From Heterotrichella gracilis (Eukaryota; Sar; Xanthophyceae; Tribonematales; Xanthonemataceae): a stretch of 64,000 bases of DNA. This document shows positions 29,171 to 52,500 of this stretch, piece after piece. Below the pieces are notes generated by a model that ran no database searches, was not told the origin of the DNA, and saw only the letters and a list, made by a program, of their open reading frames with translations. The translations under genes were made by a program, and so were the position numbers. Every line of letters begins with the position of its first letter. The first letter of the stretch is position 1. The stretch covers positions 1-64,000 of the forward strand of contig JAULBX010011878.1 in assembly GCA_032358255.1 (NCBI GenBank). Reading direction: 5' to 3'.

Positions 29171-32100
29171 ATGCACACACAGAGTTTTCAGCGTCATGCT
29201 GCGCACTGCGGGGCACATGGCGTGGGTATTTCACCGAGAGGGCAACCGAGTGGGCGAGTGCCATGCCCACCACACAACCGGCTGCACCGGCGTATGGTCA
29301 CCGCCACCAACCCTCTACAGGTAGTTTTACAAAAACTGATTCAAGACGAGATAGGACATGATTAAAACCAGGGAAATAGTTGTCTGAGTATACTTAGCTT
29401 ACCCCGCATGCCCTCGTGCTCATGCTTGCCAAGCAAAACAGACTCCACCCCCTGTTGTTGTTTTGTCAGGTGACCTCGCGAGTAGGCCCGTCAATCAGGG
29501 CAGCAAGTAACGTTGATGCCCCCTCCGCTACTGCCGTCGCCCAAAACCCTAAAACCCTAACGCAGCGCATGTTTGAGGAGCTGGAGCGCAGGGGGCAAAG
29601 CCAACAAGGTATGGGTGTCCCTCCCCTTGCACACATATATGTGCCAATACTGCCCATTGTTAGCACATTGCATTCATGCACACCAATCATTTGCCCTTGG
29701 TTAAAAAGAAATCTCTGGTGCCTTGCACGCCATTGTCATTGCTGCCCGCCCAAAATGCGTTGCATTGCATTACACTTCATGGTATTGGCAAACGCAATGC
29801 CCCGGCGCAATGCCTGATCCGCACAGCAAACCCATATAATTCCCACCAATACATATAACCCTAGCCCACCAACCTCATGCGACTCACCAACATGTTGGCT
29901 TGGTTGGTGCAGCGGGGGGTGCAGGGGGTGCTACCAGCTACCAAGCATTCAAGGGTGCCGATGCAGCATGGACAGCGCTGCGCAACAGCAAGGTAAAACC
30001 CTATGCCCCGAGACATTAAGAACCCTAACCATGTGCGCAGCAGCCAGGTGAATCCCTGCCGCCCATGCATGGGCGGCAGGTGGGCATACCTACCGCCATT
30101 CCGCTTATGCAGCAACAAAATATAGAGCTTACACTATGATATAAGTATGGTTTCAGAGAGGCAACGCTTGCAGTGTTGCCGACACCTTGGTTCTTCGTCC
30201 CTCCCCTTCACAACGCATCCATGCCACCCCCTCCTTGGCCTGCAGACAGGAGCCGAGGCGGGCCCTGCACCCCAGTTTGTGACCTGGCAGTCGGGGCGGT
30301 GCCCCACAGCGGTGCAGTATGACGTGGCGCTGTGCGGCGGGACACTTGGCATATTCCTGGCATGCGCCCTTCAGCTCAAGGGGGTGAAGGTATGAGCTTG
30401 CATGCTGGTGCATATCTACATCATTATATTAGACAAGTGGTTGGGGCTCACAGATGGGTGCTGGGGGAATTTGCATTGATCTTGCAAGAGAGGTTTACGA
30501 CATTAATTATCGATTCCTGCAACGCTCCTGTCCAATGACTAAATCTTCACTCTTGGTGGTGTTTTTTAATCTGTGCCAGGGGACATCGCAAGCTTGTGAA
30601 ACATAAAATACATCGCAAGCTATAGCTATTTAGCTTTCAAAAATGGATATCCCTCTGTTTGGAGAGTTTGCACATGACTGAACAAAGGAGATGTAATTGC
30701 TGATGCAGGTGGCCGTGGTTGAGCGGGGGGCGCTTGTGGGGAGGGCTCAGGAGTGGAACATCAGCAGGAAAGAGCTGGAGGAGCTGGTAGGATTGAAAAC
30801 GCAACAGGAATTCTTGCACTGACTTTTAGGGCAAAATGTGCATATTTATTTGACTTCTTAGCCGCTAGCGTCGCCAATGATCGGGGGCAGGACAACAGAA
30901 AAATCAGGGCCACCTCCACATGTTTATATAGCTGCACATGCACCATTTTCGTTTCCATGCATAAAATACGTAAGTACAGATCAATGTACCACACTCCTGT
31001 GCCCACTTGTAAATACCATCCCCCCCTTGCAGGTGGCTCTGGGTGTCTTGACCAATGAGGAGGCAGAGGCGGCAGTGAGCCAGGAGTTCAACCCTGTTAG
31101 GGTTGGTTTCCATTCCTCCCCTGCCATCTGGACCAGGGATGTGCTCAATTTGGGTGTCAGCCCCATACGCCTCATCGAGATGGTGGGTGCAGGGTAAATC
31201 ATGAACCCTGAAACCTAAACCAGTGATGTGATCAGTTTGGGTGTCAGCTCCAATCGCCTCATTTAGATGGTGGATGTATGTTGACATACCAATAAATGTT
31301 AGGGCCATGTAACAAATAACGTGACGGGCCATGCGAAATCACCCATTTGACATCATCCGAGTGAAAATATCCTTTGAGATCTATCACTGGAATCGTCTAT
31401 CCAATTGAAATCGTCCATGTGAGACCCATACATGTGATTATGACCTGTATGACCTTGTGGTTTCCTATAACCCACTAGGGTTATGCCACATTCCCCTTAT
31501 GGCGCTGTGCAGGTGAAGCAGCGGTTCATTGCAGCAGGGGGGGTGGTGCTGGAGAAAACTGCTGTGGATGGCATGACCATTTATGACGATGCAGCCCTGT
31601 TGGCGCTGCCGTCGTCCTCTGAGGGATTGGCGGCAAAATTGGTGCGACGAATTCCCTCATCATGTGTTGCTGCTTTTCCCCTTGACACCCTCTTCCCGCC
31701 TCGATCCTCGAACACTATCGATGGACTTGGTCGTAACAGCATACCTAGAGGGCTTCAAAGCTGACGTGGCGCACATAGTGACCTGGGGTCCATTGTCATT
31801 CTACACCAGAGCTGTTGATTTGTCAAATGGACAGTCATACATCTTTGATGGTTCACTCACCATCCTGTCTGCCCCAGCATCAACATGTGCTGTCACCCAC
31901 ACATTCACCACCGCCGCGTCTTCCCAGAGCACGCAACACTGCAGCACAACACACAGCCACCGCCGCCCATCTCGTAAACACACATCACCCACCACCCCAC
32001 CGCTGCAGGTCATTGACTGCATGGGCCACGCCAGTCCCGTGGTGCGCCAGTCGCGCTGGGGGCGGAAGCCGGATGGGGTGTGCTGTGTGGTGGGTACGCT

Positions 32101-34920
32101 GGCCAGCGGGTTTACAGACAACACAACAGGTGCGGTGGGGGGTGGGGGGTGGGGGGTGAAACAGGTGGGGCATCACATTGTGCGGTGTGAATTCGGGCTG
32201 GAATGTTTCGCCATCTCTTTGGTTGAGCACCTATGACATGTGTGAAGAGAAACAGTGCAAAATTGTTCCTCCTAGGTGGCAGCTGATTAGTAGCGGCATC
32301 AGAAAGCTCGGGCACGCAAAGGCGTTTTGAGTCACAATTTATATGTTTGTTGGTCCTACCTGTCAGAGCTGAAGTACTCTTGATTCCTGTGCCGTGGCAC
32401 AGGCAATATACCCGCTGCGTTTTCTCACAGACTAGGCGTAGTCAATTAGCACCTGCTTTCCCTCTGCGTGTGAGCTAAATAACAAATCCCTGTTCGTTTT
32501 CTCCACCTTGCAGGGGACGTCATTTACACAAATGCGGACCTCACGCCCCTCTCAGCCCCCTCCCCATCCACCCAGTATTTCTGGGAGGCATTCCCCGCAG
32601 GCGCTGGCCCCACCCACCGCACCACATACATGTTTGCATACATGGATGCCTCGCCCTCGAGCCCCTCCCTGGAAACCCTCTTTGAGGATTACTGGCAGCT
32701 CATGCCGCAGTACCAGGTGGGGCGGGGCTTGGAAAACCCTTTGGTAGGATTTTGGTGGTGTGAGGGTGTGGGTCACAACCCTTAGCTAGATAGTTGCTGC
32801 ACTGCAGCATCACATTGTGTATAACCCAGGCCCATGGTACGCAGGTGCTCATTGCTTTATATAAAGTAATTGCCGTTGGCTAAAAAATACTTCCCTGGCC
32901 CATGGCTAGCAGATATTGCTTACGCTTTCCACTGCTGCCCGGCTTTCCACTGCTGCCCAGCCATGCATTGTTACTTGGCTGGATGCCATTGTGGCTTGCA
33001 TAGGAGCGAGGTTGCTGTGTAACCGGACTTGAACAAAAGAAATGCCACATACGCATCCAGGTCACCTGACTGTAGAACCCTCGCCCACACATACCTGTGT
33101 CCATATGCATACCAGAAACAGGAATTCAACTGCACAACACCCTCGTGTGATCAACAACCCTCACCCATGCTTACTGTATTTCTACCCTTCTACATTTCTC
33201 ACATCAGCAATGTTCTTCACCCCTTGCAGGGCATTTCCCTGGACGACATCCAGGTGGAGAGGATACTGTTTGGGTTCTTCCCCACCTATAGGGACAGCCC
33301 CTTGAGGCCAGCGTTCGACAGGCTGCTGGCGGTGGGGGACGCATCGGGGATCCAATCCCCGCTGTCGTTCGGGGGATTTGGGGCGCTGACACGGCACCTG
33401 GAGAGGCTGACAGGAGCAGTGGTGGAGGCCTTAGAGGTAGGAGTTTAGGGTTTAGGGTTTGGGTTTTAGGGTTTGAGGTGTCGAGGCGGCGCATGGAGAT
33501 GCTGACAGCAGCGGTGGTGGAGGCCTTGGAGGTAGCATTTAGGGTTAAGGATTTGGGGTTTGGGGTTTGGTGTGCTCACGCGATACCTGGAGAGGCTGAC
33601 TGGAGGGGTGGTGGAAGCCCTGTAGGTTAAAGTCTAGGGTTAAGGGTTTAGGATTTGGGGTTTAGGGTTTGGTGCGCGCACGCGGTACCGTGTGAGGCTG
33701 ACAGGAGCGGTGAAGAAGCCCTGGAGGTGGGGATTAGGTTTTGGGGGATTGGTTTAGGGTTTGGGGCACAGGTGCGGCATCTGGAGTAACCCCTCCTTCT
33801 CCCTGATCAGTGCATAGGGGTGCCTCGCTGGGCGCCCGGCTGTGCTACTTGCCTAGCCCTTCCCTGGATTGTAGTATAGTAATTCCCCTGATGCAGCCAC
33901 TCTTGTCCCCCCTTTTCTTCCTCAAGCACCAACCAACCCCCCCTCCTCTCGTCCCTCATTCTCGTCACCCCCCTTGCAGGCCGACGCCCTAGATCGCTCC
34001 TCCCTTTCCCTGATCAACGCATACAACCCGGGACTCAGCGGGGCGTGGATGCTGCAGCGCGCAATGAGCACGCGGCCCGACACCCCGCCCGCCGCGAATT
34101 TCATCAACAAGTTGCTGGGGGCCAATTTCGCCACCATGGCGCGGCTCGGGGACCCTGTAATGAAGCCATTTCTGCAGGTGGGTGGGTGGGGGGGGGGGCA
34201 GCTACGCACACGTCTCCATTGAAGGGTGCATGCATTGGGTAAGGCGAGCACGTGGGAGGGTGGATGGTTGCTCACTCGTCTGCATTGCTGGTTGGCAAAA
34301 ACCCTGATCTAGGGTGTGGCTGTCCGGCTCACGCAGACCCTGACCGCGGGTTGCACCACTGCTTGTGCATGTAGGCGGGTGTGCTGGAGCTTTTTTTAGG
34401 GTTTAGGGTTTAGGGTTTAGGGTGGAGGTTTTGCTCTCATCCTCGTGTATACACGTTGGTGCTGGTCGGTGTATCAATGATGTGTGCAAGCCCTAGACTA
34501 GGGTTTCCTAGGTAATTGCAATTGTGCAGGGCCATACCACTCATCTGCAGGCTGGGCCCCACTTGGTCAGCTAACCTACCGTAGGGTAGGTGGTTTTGCA
34601 AACGATTCATAGCAATGCCTAACAGCCGCCTCAACACTCCCCCGCAGGACGTGGTGCAATTTGGACCCCTGGGCGTGACCATGCTGAACCAGATGATTTC
34701 GGAGCCCCAGTTTGTGCCCCAGATCATCCGCCATGTGGGCATCGCGCCCATCGCAGACTGGCTGTTCCACTTCATTACCCTAGGGTTGTACACGGGGTTG
34801 AACGGCCTGTCGGGACCCCTGGTGGCGGCGGCTGATAGACTGCCTGCCAAGCAGCGGTTCAGGGCAAGGCGGCTGCGGGACGCGTGGAGGTTTGGCAGCG
34901 GGAAGGACTACAAGCTGTGA
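29171..34920 (+). CDS. FAD/NAD(P)-binding oxidoreductase, lycopene-cyclase-like plastid family
   Basis: Twelve exons (29171-29320, 29470-29608, 29913-29992, 30246-30389, 30709-30786, 31033-31182, 31513-31641, 32009-32129, 32514-32716, 33230-33436, 33980-34177, 34648-34920) close in phase to 623 residues. Exons 1-3 give a His/Arg/Ser-rich leader that looks like a transit peptide. The dinucleotide-binding start YDVALCGGTLGIFLACAL is followed by KGVKVAVVERG, then QEWNISRKELEELV, FNPVRVGF, LNLGVSPIRLIEMV, IDCMGHASPVVRQ, RWGRKPDGVCCVVGTLASGF, FWEAFPAGAGPTHRTTYMF, FPTYRDSPLRPAFDR and GDASGIQSPLSFGGFGALTR. This pattern is shared with a plant plastid family annotated only as FAD/NAD(P)-binding oxidoreductase, related to lycopene cyclases and geranylgeranyl reductases; the substrate is unknown. 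Exon 2 encodes QNPKTLTQ from CCCTAAA-type repeats. Introns 6 and 10 contain copies of the preceding exon edge. Confidence 0.88.
30055..30080. other. Perfect 26-base palindrome in intron 3
   Basis: The half-site CCTGCCGCCCATG is followed immediately by its exact complement, with no spacer. It lies inside intron 3 of the oxidoreductase gene and could form a strong hairpin in the pre-mRNA. Confidence 0.85.
31137..31275 (+). repeat. Duplicated exon 6 edge with donor in the FAD oxidoreductase gene
   Basis: The last about 45 bases of exon 6 plus donor (31137-31187, GATGTGCTCAATTTGGGTGT and on) recur at 31223-31272 with a handful of changes. The copy keeps ATG followed by GTGGAT at the position of the original donor GTGGGT. 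A short CCCTGAAACCTAAACC tract separates the two. Confidence 0.85.
33380..33803 (+). repeat. Four to five tandem copies of exon 10 edge plus TTTAGGG tract
   Basis: The last about 55 bases of exon 10, its donor and a TTTAGGG-type tract (33380-33475) form a unit of roughly 95-105 bases repeated at about 33477-33575, 33576-33675 and 33676-33775, with a fifth truncated copy ending near 33790. Each copy keeps a GT after the equivalent of EALE: GTAGGA in the original, then GTAGCA, GTTAAA and GTGGGG. Confidence 0.9.
34391..34422 (+). repeat. Interstitial TTTAGGG array in intron 11
   Basis: Four consecutive TTTAGGG-type units in intron 11 of the oxidoreductase gene. The unit is that of plant and many green-algal telomeres. 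Unique sequence on both sides shows it is not a chromosome end. Confidence 0.9.
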
Positions 34921-35090
34921 TGCAGCAGAGTGGCTGTGGTTTGCAAGGATGGTTTAGGGTTTAGGGTTTTTGTTTTGGGGACCAAGGCCCTAGTGGTCAT
35001 CCAGCAGAGTGGTCGTCGCGTGCAAGGCTGGTGTAGAGTTTAGGGTTTAGGGTTTGGGGTCTGGGGACCAAGGCCCTAGTGGTCATCAGC
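34921..35090 (+). repeat. Two-copy tandem repeat after the FAD oxidoreductase stop
   Basis: A unit of about 80 bases (CAGCAGAGTGG, GTTTAGGGTTTAGGGTTT, GGGGACCAAGGCCCTAGTGG) occurs at about 34922-35000 and again at 35001-35083. TTTAGGG units sit at the same place in each. Confidence 0.85.
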
Positions 35091-36273: not shown

Positions 36274-39200
36274 ATGTCTTCCTCACCCGCCGACCTCAGC
36301 AACGCTGCAGCAGCGCTGCAAGACGCGGTTCCAGTGCCCAAGACCGCCAAGTCCAAAGGCAAGAAGGGTGCAAGGTGAGGCAGCGTGCTTCGATGCAGTT
36401 CCACTTGGTTTCGAATGCATGCAGTGCTGTCGTGACTGATTCAGCCCGTCCTAGAGGGCGATCCGTGTGTTGCCCACCACCGCCCAACCCACTGCCTCTC
36501 TTGCCGTGGACGTGGGTTCACCCTCTTCCCCGAAACACCTTCGCAGCGCTGCTAGTAGCTCGTTATTGTGTTCCCACGGCACGTTTTACACGACCATGAG
36601 GCGCGTGAATCCACCTGTGTACCCAACGGCGTCGTACGACTGTGGGAAACCTGTAAACTAACTGCACCTGACGTTACTTGAGTGCCTGATCGATGTTCAC
36701 CCACCCTTCTCCACCGCGCCGCCCTTTGCAGCGCGTGGGCCCGGCAGCATTCGTATATGCATGCATTCCAACCTGAACGACAGCATTGCGTGGCCATCAA
36801 CAGCCTATCTGACGTGCGCTCTGTTTCCTGCAGGCCTTCACGGACTGTGACCGCTGCTGAGCTGGAAAAGTACCAAGAGTGCCTCAAGAAGTCCAGGCTG
36901 CTTCCGGGAAGCTTAAGGGCGGCCCCCGTCCGTGAGGTGAGATGCGTTTGATGGACACTCGTTGGGGTGTGCTGTATTGAGTACTATGGGCTCCAGGCAC
37001 CTTTACCTGACGCCCGGGCTTATTTCCTTGAGTACACGCGATGGGCAGTTGTTTTCGCTTTATGGGTACAGAGCTTGTTGGTTCATTGAACAACCCGCAC
37101 CAATCAACTATTGGTGCGGGTTTGCCAGTTTGCCACCATGGCTGCCTGCAGCCATGTACACTCAGAACATAGTTTGGAGTCTAGCTATAGCTAGCTAGCT
37201 ACCTTCTTTTGCGTCTGGATGTTTTGTTTCAATAAGCAAACCCGTTGCAATGCATATGGAAACCTGTGGCTGTAGCGGTCTGCTGTGAGTACTAGTGCAT
37301 GACCCTCGCCCCACACCCTTGTTCACCCACCCCCACCCTTACCCTTTCCTGGCCAGCCGCCTGTTGTGCTCACACGCCTGTGTGTTTGAAAGATATAGAT
37401 AACAACCTTGCTAAATTGCCTGTTTTCTTGTTGTCTTGCAGGCTCCAGTGGTCCCTGAGAGCCGGGCAGCGGGAGGGGTCCACATGCGCCAGAAGCCCAA
37501 GAAGAACAAGAAGAACCCCACCTCCAGCGCCCTCCCCACCCTCGCGGCACCTGCCCCATCTACCACCCCCCAGCCCATCGACGAGCCAGTGGCGCCCACC
37601 ATCGCCACCACCCCAGTCCCTACCGCCGCCTCCACCGCCACCGCCACCCCCACCGACCTCCCCCACCACGAGGCACCTTCCTCTCCACCCACAGAGGCTG
37701 TGGACCAGGAGGCCTGCGTGGGCGTGGACACACCAGTGGCACCAACTGCCACCCACAGCGAAGCCCCCAAGGCGCCTACCACCACCTGCACCGCCATCGT
37801 GCCCTGCATCCCTAGGGCCCTCACCATCTTCGCCATCCCTGCCACCTACAACATCGCTCCCTACAACACCAGGGCGCCCGCCATCCCCACCAGCACCGCC
37901 ATCGTCCCATACATTCCCGGGACCCCCGCCATCCCCACCATCACAGCCATCGTCCACCACACCCTCAGGACGCTGACCATCCCCACCATCCTCGCCACCA
38001 CCGCCGTCGTCCCCTACACCCCCGGGACCCCCGCCATCCCCACCACTATGGCCATCGTCCCCTACACCCTCGGGACCCCTGCCATCCCCGACATCCCCGC
38101 CACCACCGCCATTGTCCCCTACACCCCCAGGACGCTGGCCATCCCCACCACTATGGCCATCGTCCCATACATCTCAAGGGCCCTCGCCATCCCCACCAGC
38201 ACCGCCATCGTGCCCTACATCCATGGGACGCTGGCCATCCCCACCAGCACCGCCATTCTCCCCTACACCCCCAGGGCGCTGGCCATCCCCACCACCACAG
38301 CAATCGTCCCCTACACCCCCAGGAGCCTCGGCATCCCCACCAGCACCGCCATTGTCCCCTACGCCCCCAGGGCGCTGGCCATCCCCACCAGCACAGCCAT
38401 CGTCCCATACACCCCCAGGACCCTCGCCTTCCCCATCACCACCACCGCTGCAGGCCCAGCAGCCATGTCGCCCACCACCACCACGCCAGGACCCACACCC
38501 ACCAACCGCACAAGGCCGATGGCAAGGACATTGCCACAGGTACGCACCTTGCCCTGACCAGCCACACTTGTGATGATATGCCTTGTCTGAGCCACCTCAG
38601 TGCATAACATGCATGATGGAAGGCGGAAATACTTTGGGAGGCGGTGTAGGCGGTGGGCGCAATTGCATAATGCACTAAATGCACCACACTGCGAACCCCA
38701 AACACCAAAACCCTAAACCCTATACTTGATCACCCAAGCTCGTTTTCTAGGGTTTAGGGTTTAAAGAAGGGTACCACACACCCCACAATGCGCTACAATG
38801 TACCCTCACCATAAAAAACCCAAAATCCAAAACCCAAGACTGTCACAACCCTAAACCCAAAACCCTAAACTTTATGCCACAATGCCACAAGCCGTGCGGT
38901 GCTGGGTGTGTGTTGTATGTGCCCTGCAATGCATGCTGGCTGACCGTTGCTCAACCCCCTTTTTACCCCCCCTGTGTAGATGGATGACATGACCCCCCTG
39001 GTGACCCTGGCCAAGGGCAAGGGGGCCTGCTGCAGTAGTACTGTACTACTGTACTACCTGCGCATGGCGGTGGATGCACGCGGCAGCGGCATTGGGATGT
39101 TTGTCAAGGCAAGCAGCACCACCGCACGCATCTTTGAGCACAGGTGGGTGGCGTGGCTGCATGTGCGTCACTGGGCAGAAAGGGTAGGAAGGGTGGTTGC

Positions 39201-40082: not shown

Positions 40083-41518
40083 GTCAATGTCTGATCACAC
40101 AACTTGAGGCTGTCCTTGAAAACATTCAATCAGATCTGGAGGGTGACAGCTTGACAATCGCGCATGACATCGTCTGTGGTGTTGTTAGCTGATCGCAAAT
40201 GCCAGCGCAGAGAGCCTGTTATTTTTCTTATCAGTGTTTCACATTTACCATAGCCCCATCTGCCAGACACCGACTCAGTAGCTAGTCTAGACACCGCTGG
40301 GGACCTTAATACCAGGACCATTAGATACCAGGCCGTCAGTATATGGTTAGTAACCGTTCTCCATTGAACGGTCAGTTACGTATCAACTTGATGGCGCTTG
40401 TACAAAGCTCACGACTCTGGTGCCCAATTTGTTTGAAAGGCTTGCCAAGTTGACAGCAAATCAAATAGATACGGGCCCTTTTGTTTTGGTTTCAGTTCTG
40501 CTGCAGCATGGGGATGAGCGTGCCGTTCTGTCGTTGTAATGCATGCATCATGCTGTCCATTATGCTACTCTGTTGAAGCTCAGTCCCAAGTGTTTTAGCG
40601 AGTGACTCACTATGACAGCGAAGGGTGAGCAATGTGTATTTTACAGGTGTTGTGTTGGAGGCTGCCATTGAATGGTGTACTACAGTTGGAAACCAGGCAC
40701 AGCGTCTGGAATGTATGCTGGTGATATGGTAGTGCCTTGGGCGTTCAGCTGGCAGGCATTCTAGCTTCTGTTAATTACTACCCCCTACACTGCTGTCCAC
40801 GATTTGGTATTGGTGTCAATGAACACCTGATCCAGATGCCACTGCACTGGCACCATCACGGATGCCATGATTTAAGCCGTGATAATCGTTGAGAAAAGGG
40901 TGAAATTTATGAAAGGAAAGGGTAAAAACCATTTGCAAACATCACATGACTTGCAAGGGATGTTACTAATAACCAGGCGCAGCCTTCCTAATGGTTAACG
41001 CCATTGCCTTTTAAAACACGGCAGGGTCATTCTGTGACAAAAAGTGCAGGAGGATTGGGTTCACTTGTAGAATGAATAAATTGTAATGTGAAAATCAAAA
41101 CTGCCTAGGGCGTTTAACATGCATTGATGGAGTGCAATTGTCACGATGGTTTGAGCAAATGTGCACCATCGAAGCCCTAGAAAATGCCACACGCTATACA
41201 ATAATAACGTACATGTACACAGTTACCAATATTCCTGCCAGTTTGATGGATTTGAAACACATACCTAGGGACAATACAGCAGGATGCTCATCAAACACTA
41301 CACAAGGGTTTTGCCTGCACGCCATCTGTCCCTGTCCCCCATCCGCCACACCCACCATCACGCCCCACCCAATAACCTGGAGAATGCCAAAATTGCAATG
41401 CCTGCTGCAGGCATACCTCAATGCTTCAGTGATTGAGCACAGTTTGACAGTATATGGTACAGCCTACAGTTTAACCTACTTGCCTATCGTTGCAGGGTTG
41501 GCCTGCAACCCTCATACC
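40083..41518. other. Convergent intergenic region
   Basis: Separates the ends of the repeat-protein gene and the AAA-ATPase gene. A segment at about 40975-41060 is faintly tRNA-like but does not fold properly (see rejected items). No gene supported. Confidence 0.5.
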
Positions 41519-44500
41519 CTAAGCTGGGCTTTTCACCCTGTCCCCTTGCACCTGCTCCACCAGCTCCTCCACAGTGTCATACTCTGCACACATACACTCC
41601 AGCGCAGAGGGGGTCATGACGCCGGGGGTGAATGCGCATGCGAATGCCTCCAGGCAGCCAGGTGTCAGCTCCTGGTTGTCCGCCTGGCAGGGGAGGAAAG
41701 GGGGGAGTGTAAGGCATGCACCGCGCGTGGAGGTGGGGGGTGCGGGGGGTATGGAGGAGGAAGGTGCAGGACGCGTGTGTGTGAAGGAGAGCGGGCATGC
41801 AGTAATTCACTCGATACCGGTGGATGTAGTGTTCTGATACCAGAATTTATGAGCTCGCTCACATACGCAGAGTATATAGGGATGCCTAACAGTAGCCCTA
41901 AACTCTGTGATGGCATCCCAGCCGCTTATGGCTCCTCACCTGGAAGTAGTGCCTATTCATTTCAAAGGCCTCAATGCGCAAACATATAGAGTGAAGGGTT
42001 TATGTGTTAGGATGTAGGGTTTCGGCTGTGCTCACCTGGAAGTAGTGCTTGACCATATCGAGGGCCTCCTCCAGGCGCAGGTGCCCCAGGTACAGGGTCT
42101 TGTTGATGCGCCCAGGACGGATGAGGGCGGGGTCAAGCTTGTCGGGGTGATTGGAGGTCATGATCTGAGAAACGGGGAGGGGGAAGGGGTTAGGGGGGGA
42201 ATGGCCACAAAAAGGAACAAGAGATAGGAGGCAGTGGGGATGGTTGAAGCTGCACAGCGCTGCCTAACAAGCTGAATGTCTCCACCTTTGAAGATCAGAC
42301 ACATGCGATGGCCATACTGAGGTCAGCCATACTGAGGCATGACGTGTTGTATTAAGAGTTTAGGCTCAAGACAATTGGATCATGTCCACATGATTCAAGT
42401 GATCACCACAATGCGTTCAGATGCACTACACCACCCCATCCAGCACAATCAAAGGAGGGTTATGTACAATGAAGCCAGATCATGTCACATGATTCCCGCG
42501 CACACACTCACTATATAATATGACCCACCACAGTGCGTTCGGCGAGTCCACCGTCCCATCCAGCACACTCAGATCATGTGGAATGGCCTCAGATCATGTG
42601 CAACCATGCAGATTGGTCATTGAAATGATCAATTGACTCACCACGATGCGCTCGGGCGTGTCCACCACCCCATCCAGCACGTTCAGCAGTCCAGCCAGAT
42701 TGAGCTGATCATCGGGCTCGTCAAATAGGCCCATGCCCTTCAACTTGGGCCCAAATGTGCCCTTCTTGGGGACCCGGTCGGGGGTGGAGGTGCTGGTGGC
42801 CTGTGGGGGGTGGGGGATGTTGGAGGCAGGAATGGTGGTGGGGCGGTGCGTGTGGTGGAAGAAGGGTGGAAAAGGGGATGGTGATATCATGTCGGAGTGC
42901 AAGGCGGTATTACTGGGGTGCAAACATATGCCACTCCCTGACACAGCCAGTTCCAAACCTGGAGAGACATGAAAGAGCAACAGGCCCCCTATATTCCTGC
43001 GGCGTACAAGCACCTTTTTAGCTCCACACACCATTCGAAGGGATTAACATGGTACCACCACCCACCTGCACCTCCCCGTCCTTGTCTTCCTCCCCCTCCC
43101 CCTTCCCCTCCTCCTCCTCGTCGCTTTCATCCTCCTCCTCCCCTTTCTCCTTGGCCCGCTGCTTGGCTGTCATGCGCACCATGTGCCACAGCTGGCGGGA
43201 GGCGGAGGCAGAGGAGGGAGCACCGGAGGAGGACTGGCCCTCACGCTTGAGGACCACGTCGCTGGCGGCATCAATGTCCTCCTGGGAATGGGGAGATTAG
43301 CCAGTCAAATAGTTACATGCATTCAAGCATTACAGACAGATTAGCAGTCAGTCTTGCATATGCGGCGCCATGCAGCCCTTTCCTTGTAAGTACTGTTTGA
43401 ACCACCTATTGATCCCACCCGACTTGAGGTCCTTTCTGGGTAAGGGAGATATGGACAATTAAAACTCCCATACAATTGGGCGCGTTTGAATTAAAAGCAG
43501 GTGGCGGGGAGTGGAGGAGGAGCACCCACATCCTGAATTGGTCACATCCTGATTTGACCACCCCATATCACACGGCCTTGACATCCCCATACCACTATTT
43601 ATGATCCTCACCATGACAAAGATGGTTTTCTTGAATGGCGTGGCCACCACCACGTCCTCCTCCTCCACGTTCACTGTGCGCGCAAACATGATCTCCATAA
43701 GCTCCTGGTTGGTCTTGATGCGCGCAAGAGGGACGTTCACGATGTTGCGACCCGTGTAGGTGGCAAGGGCCTGCACGGAGGGGGTATATGGGTTCAGGGT
43801 TTAGGGTTTAGGGGTCGAGGTTATGGTTATAGTTAGGGACAGGATTTGGGCTGCAGGGAGGCGGGGATGGGGGGATGCGTGGTGCGCAAGGGGCACGTTC
43901 ACGATGTTGCGCACGGCGTAGGTGGCTAGGGATGCAAGTGGGGCGCACGGGGTTGAGGGAGGTTTTAGGATTGGGGCTTAAGGAGGGAAGGGGAGTGAGA
44001 GGGTTGGTGGTGGCTGGTGACAGCGAAGGTCCATGCTGGTGAATGCCCTTGCCACAAACATTCATGAGCGGATGTAGGCTTCACAATTAGGGTTTGGAAG
44101 GCACGCACTGAATGACCTAGGTGGATAGCTTAGGAGGGGACATGTGTGGCACATGCTTGCAATTACAATGGGTCCATCCACATACACCCTATGCTAGGGT
44201 CTTCCAGGGTTTCAGCACCAGCGCAACCGCAACCCCCACCTTGATGAAGGAGGTTTTGCCTGTGCCTGGGGGCCCGTGCAGCAGCAGGCCCAGCTTGTGG
44301 GGGTAGCCGGGGATGGCAAATTTCCCGGATTTTGTGCTGAATTTGTCCACCAGGCGCAGGATGGCCTCCTTCTCAGGGTGGAAAAAGGATGCGAAGGTTT
44401 TCTCCCCTGACAGCTCGTAGCGCTTGTACAGCACCTGGCCTGCCTTGCCGGTCTCCCCCTCCACGTACTTGAGGGGCATGTATAGGTGGCTGCAGGGGTG

Positions 44501-46619
44501 GGAAGGGTGGGCATGACAAAATGCGATAAGCTAGACAATCTGCATGCCCATTACATATGAAGTTTTGGGGTGAGCGGCGGTGGTGTGAAGGTGGCATGTG
44601 GCAATCTTGAGGGGCATGTACAGGCGGCTGCAGGGCGTGTGTGTGTGGTGGTGGGAACGTGGCACGTGGCGATGGGCGAGGGCAGCAGTACATTAATATA
44701 CTTCAGAGTGGTACATGCGTTAGTAAATTGGTGTAACCCTGGTGAGGGCCTCATGGGGGTTGTGCCAAGCATGCGTGCAGGGAAGGTTGGCAGGGTGTGC
44801 ACGGCAGTCATCCATTTGGAACGAGTTATGGACCATCAGAACGCACCGCAGCACGCTGTTTTGCATGCCATGTAGTCCAGCCTCACCCAGCCCCTCTCAC
44901 AACCCCTAGGTGTTGAAAACCCCTCCCACATGAGACACCCTGTACCCTAGCTAGGGTTTCCACCCCTTCCAAACCGCCTACTCACCGCTTGTTGCCCGAC
45001 ACCTCCCCCAGCTTCTTGGCCCGATAATACTCAAACGCCTTCTGCACAAAATCGGCGATCAGGCGTTGGCCGTCGGGGAGGTCGCTCTGTAAGGTGAAGG
45101 AGGTGGTGACAGGGGTGTTGCCGCCGGTGGAGCGCGTCTCCCCAACCTCCACAACCCTGCGATGCGCACATGGGGAATAGATTAAAATATAATGTAAAAG
45201 AATATATATAAACAATAATAAATAAATACAAATGTACTGGGATGGGACAGGTTTGGCATGTGCTCATTTGAACCCTGGCTGGCGAGTTGGCACCCGTAAT
45301 CAATGGTGATAAGATAACAATAGGACTATTATTATCTTATTACCCTTGCCGTGATGCCGCCAGCTTTGTATCCACCACATGCATCCCTGCTCAGAAATTA
45401 CAGGGATGAATGACAGCCTCGACTCACGTGATGAACTTGAGCCCTGGCTGGACCTCCACCTGAACCCCCTTGGGTGGCGTGGTGGTGAGGCGGTACCGCT
45501 TCAGCTCACCCTGCTCGTGGCTGCATGGGGGGGGAAATAATGGGTTAATAGAATATAGCTAAGGGTGAATGCTATAAAAATACAACTACATAAAATATAT
45601 GAGGAGGGGTAGATTGGCAGTCACTGCAGACATGATGCAAACCCTAGGTGAGGTTCGTGGCAGGTGGGTAGCGCTGGCAGTTGGGAGCAAGTTTAGGGTT
45701 TAGGGTTTAGGGTTTAGGGTTTAGGGTTTAGGGTTTGTCACCTTCAAACCCTAAACTGCGCTGTTTTAGGGTTTAGGGTTTAGGGTTTAGGGTTTGAGCA
45801 AGCATGCATGTGGGTAAAAGAACGTATGCCCCGATGCATGGCACCTTTTGCATTGAGGTGCAAAGGAGTGTATAGAAATACCGGTGTCATACAGTGTTCG
45901 GGTTATGAGCGCTGGGCGGGGTTGTGGGCATCATGAGAACCGCCCAGCTCTGACCACAAAACCCTACTTTAGGGTGATGACCACAGCATGCACAGCACAC
46001 ACTTAACAGGAGCAACTTGTGCACGGGCAGGGCCCACCCACCTGCGTCCATCGTCCTCGTCGTCGCTGTCCTCGCCTGCTGGCGCCGCCCCGTCAAAGTC
46101 GATCAGCGTCATGCCCCCGTCCCTGAACCTCTCAGTCACGCCCTCCAGCGAGTTGAGGTAGCACATGATGGCCTCCTGCAGGACCTTGTTCTTCCTTCCC
46201 TCCTACAGGGAGACAGTTACAAGCGGGTGAGGGGGCGGTGGGGTGGCGGCGGCGTGGCACGGGCAAGCACAAACCGTTCTGGCATGCCCAGGCATGTGGT
46301 GGGCGGAGCATGCATTGGTGCAGTACAAGTTCCATTTGGAGACACAGGCTAAGCAATGCTTGGGTTGGGTGGCGAAAAGCATTACAGCCCTTACCGGGTC
46401 CCAGTAATATCCGTTGTCGGTGTGTGAGATGACTCGCGTGCACATATTCTCTGCCTTCTTGCCAGTCCTCAGGTATTGCAGGGTGTCAAGCAGACGGGGC
46501 AGGAACTCTCGGACCAGCAGCGGCATCAGGAGGCAAAGGAGAACATCCAGGAGCATGTGGCCAGTGCTTATCTTGTTCATCATACCAAACTGGGTGAGGA
46601 TCTCGGGAGTAATCTCCAT
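41519..46619 (-). CDS. BCS1-like AAA ATPase
   Basis: Ten exons (46619-46395, 46202-46042, 45520-45428, 45156-44986, 44489-44240, 43770-43612, 43281-43066, 42800-42642, 42164-42036, 41683-41519) close in phase to 575 residues. The N-terminus has a hydrophobic helix (HMLLDVLLCLLMPLLV) suggesting a membrane anchor. The AAA core shows Walker A GPPGTGKTSFIK at the end of exon 5, Walker B TIFVMEDIDA across the exon 6/7 border, and sensor/arginine region IMTSNHPDKLDPALIRPGRI, the last typical of BCS1 and plant AAA-ATPase-at-mitochondrion-type proteins. Between Walker B and the sensor lies an unusual insertion of about 100 residues, rich in Glu, Asp, Lys and Ser. BCS1 itself threads the folded Rieske protein across the inner mitochondrial membrane; whether this paralogue does so is uncertain, because the BCS1-specific N-domain is not evident. 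At four junctions the exon edge is copied into the adjacent intron. Confidence 0.87.
41931..42082 (-). repeat. Duplicated exon 9 edge with donor (AAA ATPase)
   Basis: Exon 9's end and donor (42029-42082) recur at 41931-41980 in the following intron, sharing CTCACCTGGAAGTAGTGC and AGGCCTC. The copy retains the splice donor (CCAG followed by GTGAGG on the minus strand). Confidence 0.85.
42380..42700 (-). repeat. Three tandem copies of the exon 8 edge (AAA ATPase)
   Basis: A unit of about 118 bases contains the exon 8 end and its donor: the original at 42635-42698 and copies at 42522-42578 and 42401-42454. All share CACCAC, TGCG.TC, CCATCCAGCAC and a flanking ATCATGT word. Each copy keeps GT at the junction. 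Confidence 0.85.
43722..43970 (-). repeat. Duplicated exon 6 start with acceptor region (AAA ATPase)
   Basis: The first codons of exon 6 and part of intron 5 (43722-43800) recur at 43883-43965 inside intron 5, sharing ACGTTCACGATGTTGCG and GTAGGTGGC.AGGG. A TTTAGGG tract sits between the copies at 43796-43811. Confidence 0.85.
44469..44640 (-). repeat. Duplicated exon 5 start with acceptor (AAA ATPase)
   Basis: CTTGAGGGGCATGTATAGG and TGGCTGCAGG at 44469-44496 recur as CTTGAGGGGCATGTACAGG and CGGCTGCAGG at 44607-44634. The copy keeps the CTGCAG acceptor on the minus strand. Confidence 0.85.
45691..45795 (+). repeat. Largest interstitial telomere-type array in the window
   Basis: Six and a half GTTTAGG units at 45691-45736 and about four more at 45764-45795, separated by a short segment that carries the opposite orientation (AAACCCTAAAC, 45746-45755). 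Located in intron 2 of the AAA-ATPase gene. Confidence 0.95.
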
Positions 46620-48150
46620 CGTGGGTGATGTGGGTGCTCACCAGCACCTGCCCAGGTGTCGACCAATACGAAATACCAGGCGAAGAAAAATTACAAAAGT
46701 GTGGGCGATAGAAGATAGACAGACGCAATATAAGGTGATGCAGTGCTGGTGGGCAAATCTATGGTGCGCTGGAAGGAGGATATTGGTGCCTCCCTATTGA
46801 CTTCTGAAAGCAGTACTGGCTTGCTTATGTACACAGTGTGGCACGCGATGTTGCACCTCCAACAAGCTGTGGTGCGAGCACTCGCACTTCCCTTTGGCAG
46901 GAATACGGCTGGCAAGCCCTCAGACTGTCAACCCACCGGGCTTCTGAACCCACAACGGGTGGTCTAGCTGCTGGGCACAGCAGGCTGGGGAGGCAGCTGC
47001 CAGGGGAAACCCTCATCCGGTGTTAAAGTGCCCTCATCCGTACTGGCAAACCCTTGTCCGGCATACCCTTCCCCCTGTACAGTTGGCCTGAAAGCAACTT
47101 GCAAGGTGGCCATCAAGCTGCAGTAGACGTACGTGCTGCCCCCTCAGCATTTTCTGCTTGTACTGGGTGGCAACCACTCCCCAGCAATAGCCTAGAACAC
47201 ATTTGATTCTGCTGCAGATGCACACTTTGGAGCTATCAAGATGCCATATCACAGTGCTACAATTGGGAGCGCACTGGACCGTTCCAGTGGGACAGTGGAC
47301 CTGGATTGCTACTGTGTCCAGCGGAGGGTCACCCGGTGTCGGTGACAGACAGTTTGCCACCTGGGTGGGGCCAGGCATGATGCACAATGCGGGCTCATTT
47401 CCCAACAGACAGGTCAGCAGGCCCCCACTGAGCCCCCTTGTCGCTCCTCGCCCAGTAGACCAATCAATGCACCTCTACAACCCTGGCTGTTTCCATAAGA
47501 CTGCTGGCTGGGGTGACGCTAAGCATGAGTGCAGTTGCTGCCCACAAGAGCAGTACTCACCCATGCACAAAGCAGGAGTGCAAGACAACCACACCGTGAC
47601 ACGCTGTGCAGCCTTGTTTCCAGACTGACAAACTTGTAAGCAACCTGCACAGGCTTGCGGGACAGCAGGAGTAGACGCGCGCGCCACTTACACTGCTGCA
47701 TACCAGAGGTCACTTATGCAATAAATCAAAGGTCTTAAGTTGCACGCAGCGGATTGCAACTGGTACAGCACAAAGGCAAAGTGGGGAATACACTGAAACA
47801 CAGGAATTCATATTCAGCTTCCCAATGTGTACGACTGAAAACAGTTTGTAGAAGACACGCAGTGCTGAGCTCACAGAGCTAAGGTGTTGTGCAGTGCTGC
47901 GGGTGCTGGCAGTGTTGTTGCCATAAGTGCTCAAGTGGCGACTGCTCTGCCATAACTCCCAGGTCATGGTGTGTGTACATTGCTTCTTGAAAGTTACCCC
48001 TGTCCATGTGGTGTCCACGTGGTGGGCAGGCTTTGTTCGTTCAGCTGATCGGCTCACACGGCTTGCACTGCCCGCCTGGTCACGGGCTTCAAGGGTTTTT
48101 TTGAAAGCCCTGCCCCTTCCCAAACCCAGTGCTGGCAGCAGCTTGGTCAA
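46620..48150. other. Region between the AAA-ATPase start and the AP-2 sigma gene end
   Basis: Upstream region of the ATPase and 3' flank of AP-2 sigma. Near 47008-47062 a CCTCATCCG-type word repeats (CCCTCATCCG twice, CCTTGTCCGGCA). A 141-codon frame at 47203-47628 is unrecognised. Nothing else supported. Confidence 0.45.
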
Positions 48151-48898
48151 TCACGTGTCCAGTTTATCCAGCTCCTGCAGCCGCTCCAAGATGACCTGCA
48201 CACAAGCATAAGAAAGGCTAGTACCAGCACAACTGCAGCCAACCACCAGCAACATGACCGCACAAACGCACAACGAAAAGATGCTGGTCAGTGAGCAACT
48301 GCAGCAGGTGGTGCTCACCTTTTTGCTGGTCTCCTGGAGCTCCCCTCCAAGGATGAACTCGTCCAAAATCAGGTAGACCTGAAACATCCAGGGCAGCGTG
48401 TTGGTAATGAAGGGTATATGCATGCATTACCGAAAGGCCGCTAATCGGCAGCCCAACTCACTTCTCATGACACCTCAAGGCCGGACTTCTTACCTTATGG
48501 AAGTTGAAGACCAAATCCAGCTCACACACGTTGCTGAAGTAGTGGTCCAAGATCTCAACAAACAGGTGTATGCTTTCCAAGTAGGCGAGCTCGTTGTCCG
48601 TGACATCGACACACAGCGAGAAGTACAGGCCAGCGTATCTTCTGTAGACCACCTTGTACGTTTTGTACTGCAGCATCACGATTTGGGTCAGTGCACAGCT
48701 GGGACATGGATGTCCCAGTGGAAAGGATGTGACCATGCAACGTACCTCTACAAAGTTTGTAAACTTTGGATCCCTGCTGACGATCAGCCTGTATATTTCG
48801 TCCTCACTTCGGTGCTTCTCAGTGTCATCATATGGTATGTAGTACTTTGCGAGCCGTGTTTTCCCTGCCCGGTTCTGCAAAAGCATGAAGCGGATCAT
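48151..48898 (-). CDS. AP2S1: Clathrin adaptor complex AP-2, sigma subunit
   Basis: Small chain of the AP-2 adaptor that links cargo to clathrin at the plasma membrane. Four exons (48898-48746, 48667-48494, 48378-48319, 48195-48151) give 143 residues, the family length being about 142. The sequence follows the family end to end: [90 protein letters not shown] and [11 protein letters not shown], ending LQELDKLDT. Residues lining the dileucine-signal pocket in sigma-2 (around the YYIPYDD and [10 protein letters not shown] regions) appear conserved. The exact start is fixed by family alignment; ten more codons are open upstream. AP-1 sigma is less likely because of the GETSKK-type end and TNFVE segment. 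No oddities in the gene. Confidence 0.96.
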
Positions 48899-49535
48899 GC
48901 CTGGCAAACTGCAGCGCCCACGCCGCAACTGCTAGCAGACTGGCTTGTGTTGGTATTTAAATGGCTTCTGGAACAAAGTAAAGCCAGTTTGGACAGGAAA
49001 CCCCGCTCAAACAGCCCAGGTACTCCTAACTGTCAGTCTGAGATAATCTGCTGACTTCAAATCCAGGTCAACATAAGCAGGCGTCACAGGCTTGTTACAG
49101 ACACATCCAACAACTAGAATCGTCCGAGACTAAACCAAGAGCACTTATGACTCAGCCACGGCGTGCAGGTCGCTTCAAGTGCCTCACGCATTCTTGCGAG
49201 CACAGCCTCGGGGGGAAACGATGGATACCCTAGGCTAGGGTATCTTGGTCTTCGCCTAGGGTTTGCACCGGCCACACAGCGACCGTCCAGCGACAAAGAA
49301 CTCATGATCGAGCGGCACAATGCACCAGCTAGAGGGGTTTGGCATGCAAGCATGTAGCGGAGTGCCCTGCTGCGGTTACTGGGGCACAGCATCTGCTTCA
49401 CCTTTTGAAACACTATCATCCACGGATGAATGACACCACCCCATTGAGTGACGAGTTGCCATGGCCATGGTGTGCGCGCACGCAATAAGGGTGTCTATTA
49501 CATTCAATACATAAGAGCCCTTTGGAGCACACCCC
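48899..49535. other. Intergenic region, AP-2 sigma start to MFS gene end
   Basis: Promoter of AP-2 sigma and 3' flank of the transporter. Carries the telomere-half palindrome ATACCCTAG / CTAGGGTAT around a single G at about 49226-49244. No gene. Confidence 0.5.
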
Positions 49536-52500
49536 TCAACCAATGGAGCCATTGCTTTTAGTGGTGGTCAATGCTTGCCACGACGGCACACAGGCTGCCA
49601 GGATGGCACACAGGCCCCAGCCACACACAATCACGCCCAACGCAACCTCAAACACCGCACGCGCACCAAAGCGTTGGTACACAACCCCCCCTACCAGGCC
49701 CCCCGTCCCCGTCCCCACACCCCTGAACAAGCCCTGGAAAATGGACTGCGTAAATGCTGCCAGGCCGGGGGGCGAAATCTGGCGGCATTTGAAGGTGCCC
49801 GCTGCCAGGCCAAACCCAAATGTCACCCCATGCAGCAGCTCTAGAGGCAGCACCACCCAGGGGTTTCCAAAAATGTGTAGGATTGCGTACCCCCACAGGC
49901 GCACGCAATAGGCCCCCAGCACCAAATGCAGCATGTTCTCCACCCCTAGGCGCTTCAGAAATTTGTCGGCAAAGAAAAGAATGGGGACCTCCGCAATGCA
50001 GGTAAATGTGAGGGTCAGCCCCATGAGCGCCTCACTACCCCCCAGCTCGTCCAAATACAGGAATAGGTACCCATCGATGACCCCCATGCCGAAACCCATC
50101 AGTACAGTCATTGCGAAAAAGGGGCAGTTTGCGGGGGTGAGCAGCCGAGTCATGCTTGACCACCCCTGGTGGGCTTCTCCCACGTGGCCCCCTTGGTCAT
50201 TTTCCCCTGGCTGCTCCGCCACACCCAGGTGGGCATTTTTATGAGCCTCCTGCTCAAATCTAGGTGATGAGGGTGCAATAACCTGTGACCACACCACAGC
50301 CGCTCCCTCGCTGCTGCGCCTGCCAGACTGCGCATCTCTGATCGCCACCCCAATGCTGCCAGCGGCTGGTCGATGATGCAGGGGGTCACCCAAATGCGCA
50401 TCGCCCTCCTCCCCCCAGCTTGGCTCCAAATTCTCCCCTCCCAAATCCGCCGATTTCCGCAAATCTGAAATGGCATCCCCACCTCCCTGCAGCTCAATTT
50501 CCCTCCCCATTTCCAGCCTCTGATACCTCCCCCCTTGGTGGCTCACCCCAGCAGGTGCCTTGCGCCCCGCCTTGAGGGCCTGGTAGGGTAATGCTAGGGT
50601 TGGCCAGAGCACCAGGAGCGACAGCATGGCATGCATCACAAATGCAACGTAGATCCCAAACCGGTGCACCACAGCTCCAGCCACAAAGCTGAATGTGCCC
50701 CAGCCCACTGCGCCCCACAGGCGGTGCTTGCCATAGCTCCCCTCCTGCATGGTGGTAACAAACCTAGCTTAGGACTTTGAGACGTCCATCGGCAATGCAC
50801 AGTACAAGCAATCAGTGTCGTTGCATCTTACACCAAGCCTTGAAAAGAAAAGAATTCATAAACCACATGAGTGCCACAACCGTGAATGCAATCAAGATGC
50901 GCAGAGTATAATTCTCACTCCAATTGACCACGCAACGGCCTGTAAAAGACTGGACCACCTGGCTGATGTGCACCACATGCAGCGCAACACAGAACAACGG
51001 GCAAAAATCGGGTGCCCCAATTATGGCCAAGGCCTGCTCCCACAGCATAAGGGCTGCTAAAAATTGCTTGTGCTAGCTGTAGGAACACACAGGCCTTACA
51101 CATATATCAGTACCAGTCCAGAGAATGTACCAATTATGGATAACCTAGAGCTATAGGTACAACAGTTTAGGATTTGTCAAGCACCTTGGCCGTGGCCGCC
51201 ATCACCGCGGCATCCGTGAAGATGGTTGCCGGCGACTTGCACCCCTCCGCCACCACCACCAGGCCCAGCAGCAGGGGGAAGGAGGAGGTGAGGGACAGGC
51301 AGGTGCGTGCAGCCAGGCTGGCGCAGAAGGTGGTCAGCAGGATGGCGCGGTGGGAGCAGGTGTGGTCCGCGAGGGCAGACCATGCGTTGCCTGCGCAGGG
51401 AAAATGGATGTTATCATGTTGACAATGGCATAGACGATGGCGAGTAATGATCAGGGTTTGACCGAATGTAAATGGAGGTTACTACAGGAGGTTGCCAGAA
51501 GGATTGGCGCAGTGGGAGCTGGTGTAACCAGTGAGGGCAGACCACGCGTTGCCTGCGCGAATGAAATGGGTGGATCATGGTGTGGGTCATGTCACATGAT
51601 TCATGTCACATGCATCACGTGTAATGAGCATGGCACAAGAAGGCCAACAGGATGGCGTGTACTGATCAAATTTTGATTGCATGTAAGATGGAGGTCATTA
51701 CACAACAAAACCAGCAGGATGGCGCGGTGGGACCTGGCGTGGTCCGCAAGGGCAGACCAGGCGTTGCCTGCGCACGCGAAGTGGGTGAATCATGTGTGAT
51801 AAGGATGGCACGGTGGGAACATGATGTGGTAATTAGTAGGTATGGCGCGTGATATTTGATGTTGGCCGGAGGCGTAGCCCACATGCTACCTGTGCATGCG
51901 TTTTGGGTTGAATTACCATTGTCTTGTGCAATAAAAATATCTTGAGAACGAACTAAGCGTCCTGTGCAATGATGATTGCACTGCACGCTATATTAACTGC
52001 TGATGGCGTTGCACACCCTGCACTAACTAGAGAAACCGCCAGCGTACTCCTGTGCGTACTGCACACCCTCCACTAACTTAAGAAACTGCCAGCGTACTCA
52101 TATGAGTACTTCAATTTTCATGCGATCATTGATTACCGGTACATACAGTATTGCAGATAAATCCTAGGCAGGTACCTGTTATTGCTGAAACCCAGGGCCT
52201 GATCGCTGCCAGTGCGCCGATGTGTGCCTCATCCAGTCCCAGGCGGCGGTAATACAGGTTGATGAAGGGGAGGAGGCACACTTGGGACGAGAAGTAGGTG
52301 GCGTACCACACCTGGGGAGTAGCGGGGATGGGATATGTGACAATTAGGTGGGAATTATGATCACGATGTGGTGTCGCCAACGAAAGCGATGTAGTGTGTG
52401 GGAGTACAATATGGTAGGGGAGTGGACAAGGGTGCGGGTTCAGGGCTAGTTGCGGGGATGGGAGTGGGAACAGTCAGCAGATGTTGCTCAATTCCTCATA

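Follow-up and report, generated by a model that had tools for sequence, protein, structure and literature searches.

Exon-intron borders in the sampled nuclear sequence of Heterotrichella gracilis recur, in direct orientation, within their own adjoining introns. The copies, their orientation, a preference for borders in the sample, two spacings, neutral decay, added intron length and an association with telomere repeats are all computed here. The reading that exon-intron borders undergo recurrent local duplication, perhaps leaving break-repair scars, is one we hold with evenly balanced confidence, the repair mechanism being what we infer. The preliminary description of the window (the whole 64-kb stretch analysed) had claimed that exon edges and their splice junctions are copied into adjoining introns, which self-comparison of the window and our own gene models confirm.

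Exon edges recur in their own introns

The sample comprises 264 kb of nuclear sequence, the 64-kb window and five contigs of the same assembly, with contig C1 (40 kb, GC 0.36) left out as a likely contaminant. Exon borders come from our own ab initio gene models and all exons and introns are predicted; thresholds were set in the course of the analysis. A Pfam profile search supports the AAA, DUF493 and MFS names and gives a sub-threshold FAD match, and the other gene names are those of the preliminary description. The features of the window are as follows.

29294..34917, + strand: FAD-type oxidoreductase gene, 12 predicted exons (own gene model; Pfam DAO, E 8.5e-5, below cut-off)
31119..31189, + strand: exon 6 donor edge, source, 64 coding and 7 intron bases (window self-comparison)
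31206..31276, + strand: exon 6 edge copy in intron 6, 80%, decoy donor after 31269 (self-comparison)
33373..33436, + strand: exon 10 donor edge, source, then TTTAGGG repeats (self-comparison)
33469..33786, + strand: about three more exon 10 edge copies with TTTAGGG-bearing spacer in intron 10, spacing ~95-100 (self-comparison)
34923..35087, + strand: tandem 86-bp unit with TTTAGGG, directly 3' of the stop codon (self-comparison)
41014..46619, - strand: AAA ATPase gene, 12 predicted exons (own gene model; Pfam AAA, 1.3e-17)
44606..44635, - strand: exon 5 acceptor edge copy in the upstream intron, 93% (source 44468-44497)
43884..43931, - strand: exon 6 acceptor edge copy in the upstream intron, 85% (source 43722-43769)
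42521..42572, - strand: exon 8 donor edge copy in the downstream intron, 81% (source 42634-42686)
41935..41972, - strand: exon 9 donor edge copy in the downstream intron, 82% (source 42031-42068)
45691..45796, - strand: two interstitial telomere arrays within an AAA ATPase intron
51324..51410, - strand: acceptor edge of MFS exon 51170-51390, source (self-comparison, gene model)
51485..51572, - strand: first copy of this edge, 78% to 51324-51410
51712..51787, - strand: second copy of this edge, 87% to 51335-51410
11176..11234, - strand: donor edge copy of exon 3 (11387-11592), 'plastid membrane protein' gene, 95% (source 11374-11432)
7698..7847, + strand: tandem 73-bp unit across the point near 7743 where a coding region is predicted to end
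28161..28283, + strand: acyltransferase copy 4, donor edge at 28036 weakly copied (64%; source 27952-28077; local search only)
15344..15597, + strand: short-unit array beginning at the DUF493 exon 3 donor, without coding bases

Nine of the twelve items first listed are borne out, namely exons 6 and 10 of the FAD gene, exons 5, 6, 8 and 9 of the AAA gene, the MFS and 'plastid membrane protein' items and the gene end near 7743, where 7698-7774 and 7771-7847 share 81% identity. The AAA exon 6 match stops one base before the border. Exon 51170-51390 was assigned to the MFS gene in the preliminary description and falls in a separate gene in our own model; Pfam MFS_1_like matches predicted exon 49695-50750. 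A Pfam profile search of the 'plastid membrane protein' returned no family. For acyltransferase copy 4 a weak copy does exist, located at a predicted donor and not in the 3' flank as had been thought. The two DUF493 items (Pfam DUF493, E 7e-18) do not stand, as the array there starts from the donor and copies no coding bases.

Copies are local, sense-oriented and frequent

Each edge probe consisted of the 45 coding bp at an exon end, searched against the adjoining intron. Across the 264 kb, 70 of 617 exon edges have a sense-strand copy in the adjoining intron at a score of at least 18, a level at which the controls gave none: 0/617 in antisense, 0/4,833 in unrelated introns and 0/1,615 in non-adjacent introns of the same gene. 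At a score of at least 16 the count rises to 83/617, against 0, 0 and 2/1,615 in these controls. As the preliminary description had it, existing introns are lengthened repeatedly, and the genes affected on the six sampled nuclear contigs are many and unrelated. Its further claim of a genome-wide reach holds for these many genes and six contigs, but the contigs are uneven, with copies at only 1/92 edges on contig C17 and at 17/84 on C47. This unevenness goes beyond the earlier description, as do the two preferred spacings and the enrichment of the introns concerned in telomere repeats.

That all this reflects an artefact of assembly or gene models is scarcely credible: although the models are ab initio and several decoys were predicted as small exons, most copies are several to 25 percent different from the source sequence, which misassembly would not cause, the edge test used coding 45-mers only, and the window items lie in recognised genes (AAA, MFS).

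Copies add their spacing to ordinary introns

The nearest copy lies at one of two preferred distances. Of 59 spacings, 27 fall at 60-130, 8 at 131-170 and 24 at 171-225 bp, with none above, and two components (~100 and ~190 bp) beat one by 29 BIC units. We rejected the idea that 190 bp represents two 100-bp steps, given that a middle copy is present in just 7/29 pairs. Nucleosome spacing as the reason why borders are hit is a guess prompted by the 190 bp peak. Copy-bearing introns (57) have a median length of 465 bp, and subtraction of the spacing leaves 266 bp, near the 256 bp of copy-free introns, so that copy-bearing introns amount to ordinary introns plus the spacing.

These lengths bear on a narrower form of copying, in which only the exon edge and splice site (30-60 bases) would be set down 100-190 bp off by templated insertion or from RNA, with the intron itself not duplicated. 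Just 26/73 pairs have a recognisable intron half where whole-unit duplication of equal age predicts 65, and the intron edges at +7 to +51 are copied in 10/399 cases against 105/643 exon edges, both of which agree with such copying; the first also tells against the recurrent duplication that we favour in its simple form. However, about a third of pairs are recognisable whole units, one of them near-perfect (on contig C11; 97 percent over 285 aligned bases, spacing 221), and the strictly sense orientation (70 against 0 of 617) is ill-suited to cDNA capture. At the 35 edges without a recognisable intron part, moreover, subtracting the copied stretch only leaves introns of 410 bp, compared with 271 bp (length-weighted 358) for comparison introns at edges without copies, whereas subtracting the full spacing gives 275 bp. 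We consider edge-limited copying unlikely.

Where two intronic copies derive from one edge, the similarity of their spacers (.65) is lower than that of their exon parts (.79; 25 pairs, 10 from one edge). This gap is unexpected, as neither part should be constrained, and it too tells against the favoured reading.

Borders exceed random placement

The preliminary description proposed weighing junction-spanning self-matches against duplications placed at random, and in the 264-kb sample border copies are in excess. Local matches were found for 105/643 exon edges and for 12/1,399 intergenic 45-mers. After removal of 11 matches with the telomere motif and 7 of low complexity, and with coding-coding matches (30) excluded, 109 duplication loci were counted: 51 border-intron, 12 intron-intron, 2 intergenic and 44 of mixed classes. 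When random placement is restricted to genes, 40.8 +- 4.4 border loci of 109 are expected where 51 are seen, a modest excess.

Duplications confined to introns are also fairly common, which tells against a simple border preference. Of 250 intron 45-mers picked at random, 14 have a match elsewhere in the same intron, and among intron 45-mers at least 60 bp from exons 153/1,193 were matched within 260 bp, hardly below the proportion for exon edges (p 0.04). Of these 153, 59 match coding sequence and 80 noncoding sequence only, and 34 of the 80 lie outside any exon-involving locus.

Such intron-only duplications are what would be seen if the exon served as an anchor, that is, if tandem duplications arose everywhere and mostly the exon-containing ones stayed visible since selection freezes that copy. 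The number of border loci expected from gene-limited placement alone also speaks for an anchor, as does the codon-position pattern described below, which fits the one-sided decay required. Similarity of the copies drops once ~6-7 intron bases have been passed, the point at which a real splice site would cease to impose constraint. Simulated random duplication with decay, in which units containing a whole exon were set aside, nevertheless yields border, intron and intergenic loci at ~41:29:30 percent (summed over seven divergence values) and, up to d 0.16, still recovers 64-100 percent of the duplications that lie wholly in introns or between genes, against 12 intron-only and 2 intergenic of 65 seen. 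On these class proportions we reject random tandem duplication with exon anchoring as the sole cause. A masked search, with exons and telomere motifs hidden and E up to 0.1, is blind to any anchor and still favours introns and exon edges: 31 of its 37 loci are intronic (random 16.0 +- 3.1, highest 25) and 8 lie directly against an exon edge (random 2.0 +- 1.3, top of 200 runs 7). Taken with these results, we regard the anchor reading as quite improbable.

Copies decay as neutral decoys

The copies decay neutrally. Over 89 pairs the mismatch between copy and source at codon positions 1, 2 and 3 is.120,.118 and.222; silent differences make up 301/694 (random 27 percent), an excess attributable to silent change on the exon side, and differences that make a stop 15/694, against a random expectation of 3 percent. 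Tandem or mutually exclusive exon duplication, where the copy keeps its coding constraint, does not describe these 89 pairs, in which stops arise near the random rate.

The copies had been said to keep GT or AG at the junction and so to form decoy splice sites. The dinucleotide is indeed kept in 33/40 donor copies (GT) and 28/36 acceptor copies (AG), but neutral decay would leave ~0.77, and retention at about that rate gives no sign of splice-site preservation. The claim that decoys are formed stands, as many equal or outscore the real site (21/33 kept donors, 12/28 kept acceptors). It is this strength, with medians of 7.7 bits for kept decoy donors and 8.6 for acceptors compared with 8.9 and 9.9 for real sites, that would suit copies retained by selection as functional decoys or as alternative exons regulating splicing. 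Against selection stand the near-neutral retention of GT/AG, a mismatch ratio (~.12 at positions 1 and 2 to.22 at position 3) that would follow from constraint on the exon alone, and silent differences explained by the exon side with stops near random; we find a regulatory role very improbable.

Introns with copies are enriched in telomere repeats

Contigs C70, C140, C526, C609, C717 and C770 begin with arrays of TTTAGGG, and the same true telomere repeat is found at inner sites, absent from coding sequence. Interstitial arrays span 1,720 bases, compared with 0-23 for 11 permuted motifs. An array is held by 25/57 copy-bearing introns and 49/304 others (p 1e-5), and among introns of at least 350 bp by 22/49 and 18/85 respectively (p 0.006); 32/57 copy-bearing introns are without one. 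Flanking direct repeats above the set level accompany 22/107 intronic arrays, against 75/1,493 random intron sites, and 85/107 intronic arrays have no unusual flanking repeat.

Interstitial telomeric sequences inserted at breaks offer a parallel, sharing short inner telomere arrays of which some have a direct flank duplication; in the sections of PMC7215372 available to us, simple duplication is given for 3/66 horse loci. The same sections put the intron share of the human sequences at 31 percent and call it random, whereas introns here carry 0.78-2.15 arrays per kb and intergenic DNA 0.09.

Discussion

Our results point to a way in which duplicated exon-intron borders would lengthen the introns beside them. 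In the tandem duplication of AGGT-containing segments, too, an exon stretch with splice-like sequence is duplicated directly and the protein stays as it was, but a new intron is created, while here existing introns lengthen. The preliminary description took the two to be the same kind of event. Under the AGGT model the donor in one copy should align with the acceptor in the other; among 27 pairs with called coding sequence in both copies and at least one border, 22 align same-type borders exactly and 0 align donor with acceptor, so that an event of the AGGT kind is not supported.

Introners (PMC9860276) likewise bring bulk change to the intron landscape and, in the part of that source available, a link to nucleosomes. 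The present introns form no such family of near-identical members: in 0/348 does a match to another gene's intron extend over 70 percent of the shorter of the two, with partial matches for 46/348. Two window introns compared with the genome, FAD intron 6 and the intron holding the copy at 51712-51787, match only their own locus and exon edge among the best candidates scored. Short direct repeats at intron borders (PMC11782384) also lie near splice sites. As presented in the portion of that source at hand, they are 4-30 bp long, pair the 5' with the 3' border and are read as insertion scars, unlike the copies here. No description of the present pattern appears among the literature matches listed, which cover titles and abstract openings, with most subscription journals outside coverage.

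Small direct duplications are common to this genome and to the products of CST-guided polymerase alpha-primase, which arise from filled-in 3' overhangs of breaks (PMC8355091). Those duplications come from Cas9-nickase breaks in mouse and human cells, and the available sections of that source report no border preference or telomere insertion.

In the recurrent duplication that we propose, tens of coding bases with the splice site, and with the following intron that is recognisable in about a third of pairs, would be repeated in direct orientation, the nearest copy being placed ~100 or ~190 bp away within the intron. The original border probably stays in use and the extra copy would become a neutrally decaying decoy; with the original border still used, the protein would be unchanged and the intron longer by the spacing. 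Both the copies and the telomere repeats may be scars left by breaks near exon-intron borders that exposed long single-stranded ends; those ends might be filled in, for instance by CST with polymerase alpha-primase, or lengthened by telomerase, before being joined. A bolder version, possible but doubtful, holds that a border-targeted, genome-wide mutational process copies edges and splice sites into introns, each step measuring roughly one nucleosome repeat or half of one, and is coupled to the capture of telomere repeats, so that exons would drive the growth of introns and keep seeding decoys.

Intron lengthening is usually ascribed to transposons and small insertions. With 69 of the 337 introns of at least 80 bp, about one in five of the sample, holding a piece of their own exon edge, self-duplication at borders could be one of the principal ways in which introns grow. 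With so many strong decoys next to real donors and acceptors, the genome offers a natural test of spliceosome discrimination, and through the link to inner telomere repeats a repair route becomes open to direct testing.

Exon edges recur within their own introns

Exons were called with a purpose-written, self-trained two-strand hidden Markov model, so that all gene models are ab initio predictions. To the window, which spans positions 1-64000 of contig C120 in an assembly of 68.5 Mb and 903 contigs, we added 40 kb from each of five further contigs (C5, C11, C17, C23 and C47), picked by contig number and not randomly. The resulting 264 kb sample, less than 0.5 percent of the assembly, contains 59 predicted genes with 420 exons (median 157 bp) and 361 introns (median 290 bp). 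The 894 kb contig C1 was left out on its GC content of 0.36 in the 40 kb sampled; it has many long open frames and is probably a contaminant.

With an edge taken as the 45 coding bases at an exon's end, the cleanest count is of 70 among 617 edges with a direct copy in their own intron at a score of at least 18 (donors 38/306, acceptors 32/311), while each of three controls yielded no copies in this test at the same score. For exons of at least 180 bp, copies were found for 4 of 264 mid-exon 45-mers against 35 of 264 edges of these exons. Across the sample, 167 repeat matches, coding-coding pairs excluded, reduce to 109 distinct loci, and 77 of these include a copy spanning an exon-intron border. 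The density of edge copies differs about 18-fold among contigs, from 1/92 in C17 to 17/84 in C47, with 8/107 in the window, 8/107 in C5, 16/110 in C11 and 20/117 in C23. The youngest-looking event in the sample lies at C11:58328-58833 (offset 38328-38833 in the joined C11 sequence), where an acceptor edge is covered by three units of 221 bp that are almost identical (97 percent, with no difference over 196 intron bases).

The preliminary description had placed copied exon edges in several genes of the window. Local direct repeats are indeed present at the places named in the FAD oxidoreductase, AAA ATPase and MFS genes and in exon 3 of the 'plastid' gene, and the repeat at the fourth acyltransferase copy exists but is weak. 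The DUF493 items are instead arrays adjoining a donor, without coding bases. Other features of the window are as follows.

16972-28528, both strands, several related adjoining genes (acyltransferase in the preliminary description)
37782-38446, array of ~48 bp units within a single predicted exon, in frame according to the gene model
48154-48874, gene for a clathrin adaptor small chain (Pfam 1.7e-51)

The protein containing the 48 bp array is unnamed and rich in Thr, Pro and Ala, and the clathrin adaptor gene is joined to an MFS exon in the predicted model.

Border preference and the conservation of exons

A duplication across a border stays visible for longer because its exon copy is conserved. 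This effect was simulated with random duplications of ~100 or 195 bp under exon-anchored decay, setting aside units that were wholly coding or held a whole exon (2,310 placements: border 763, intron 724, intergenic 727, coding-end 96). Detection for border, intron and intergenic placements was.97,.96 and.96 at a per-copy divergence of 0.12,.89,.64 and.80 at 0.16, and.80,.22 and.30 at 0.20. Over seven divergence values the simulation predicts border, intron and intergenic matches at about 41:29:30 percent; the observed best matches at the 109 loci were border-intron 51, intron-intron 12 and intergenic 2. The other 44 comprise 18 border-border loci, mostly decoys that the gene model called exons, 16 coding-intron and 10 others. 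A search at E up to 0.1 in which exons and telomere motifs were masked returned 37 loci. Of these, 31 are intronic and 8 abut an exon edge, exceeding the maxima of 25 and 7 reached in 200 random placements. Random placement confined to genes gives a weaker contrast (51 border-intron loci of 109 observed against 40.8 ± 4.4 expected).

Duplications confined to introns also occur. Of 250 random intron 45-mers, 14 match elsewhere within the intron they come from, whereas comparisons with unrelated introns give 1 match in 1,940. For intron 45-mers that lie 60 bp or more from exons, a match no more than 260 bp away exists in 153 of 1,193 cases; 59 of the 153 match coding sequence and are exon copies viewed from the opposite side, and 80 match noncoding sequence only (46 in loci involving exons, 34 not). 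Matches were found for 12 of 1,399 intergenic 45-mers, 6 of them noncoding-only. The strongest contrast is therefore between introns with their exon edges and intergenic DNA, and border preference inside introns is graded, not absolute. Partial stretches are common to introns of other genes in 46 of 348 introns, such as the window intron after 43281, so dispersed repeats are present in introns too.

Decay and spacing of copies

Mismatches between edge and copy number 183/1,523, 180/1,528 and 336/1,516 at codon positions 1, 2 and 3, as expected of mainly silent change in the exon and free change in the copy. Copies retain GT in 33 of 40 cases and AG in 28 of 36. Copy-bearing introns (n=57) have a median length of 465 bp against 256 bp for copy-free introns (n=304); with the edge-to-copy spacing subtracted they measure 266 bp (IQR 228-349; p 0.25 against copy-free introns). 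The nearest copies (n=59), within a range limited by intron length, peak at ~100 and ~189 bp, with 8 at 131-170 and the farthest at 218 bp; additional copies of an edge reach distances of several hundred bp. Only 7 of 29 pairs spaced 170-225 bp have a middle copy, so two successive short steps do not by themselves account for the longer spacing.

Duplication of a whole unit does not describe all of these data. The intron half of the unit is recognisable in 26 of 73 pairs, where 65 are predicted. In 21 of the 73 pairs, homology on the exon side continues beyond the first ungapped segment, which indicates that insertions and deletions shorten the visible match; the shortfall persists. Where two intronic copies come from the same edge, spacer identity (.65) is below that of the exon part (.79); this comparison covers 12 edges and 25 pairs, of which a single edge supplied 10. 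These departures may reflect copying limited to the edge, fast turnover of the spacer or gene conversion from the exon, and conversion would produce the same codon-position pattern.

Telomere repeats accompany the copies

TTTAGGG arrays stand at the starts of six contigs, and the sample holds 116 short arrays of this true telomere repeat, 109 intronic and 7 intergenic (window examples 45691-45796, 33438-33474 and 34395-34423). Their density per kb is 2.15 between edge and copy, 1.18 in the rest of copy-bearing introns, 0.78 in copy-free introns and 0.09 in intergenic DNA. The association with copies is not circular, since telomere-bearing matches were taken out before copies were counted. Of 107 arrays, 71 read CCCTAAA and 36 read TTTAGGG on the sense strand, a 2:1 bias. 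Intronic array density, which differs ~9-fold among contigs, parallels that of copies in being highest in C47 and C23 and lowest in C17; in the window arrays are high but copies are not. In several units the array lies a few bases past the donor and is duplicated along with it.

Origin of the copies

When the copies were tested against the AGGT model of intron creation, Introners and exon duplication, none of the three described them. Among the literature matches listed, exon-edge copying at such density was not described, which is no proof of absence. In plants, adjacent nicks reportedly give rise to direct duplications (Schiml and colleagues, 2016). We favour break repair as the origin of both copies and telomere arrays; the tests made here do not account for the border preference. 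Staggered break ends, once filled in, would leave direct duplications, as PMC8355091 describes for CST with polymerase alpha-primase. Telomerase acting at breaks would leave short arrays, sometimes with duplication of the flank, as reported in PMC7215372. The peak near 190 bp suggests that nucleosome spacing may set the longer distance between edge and copy.
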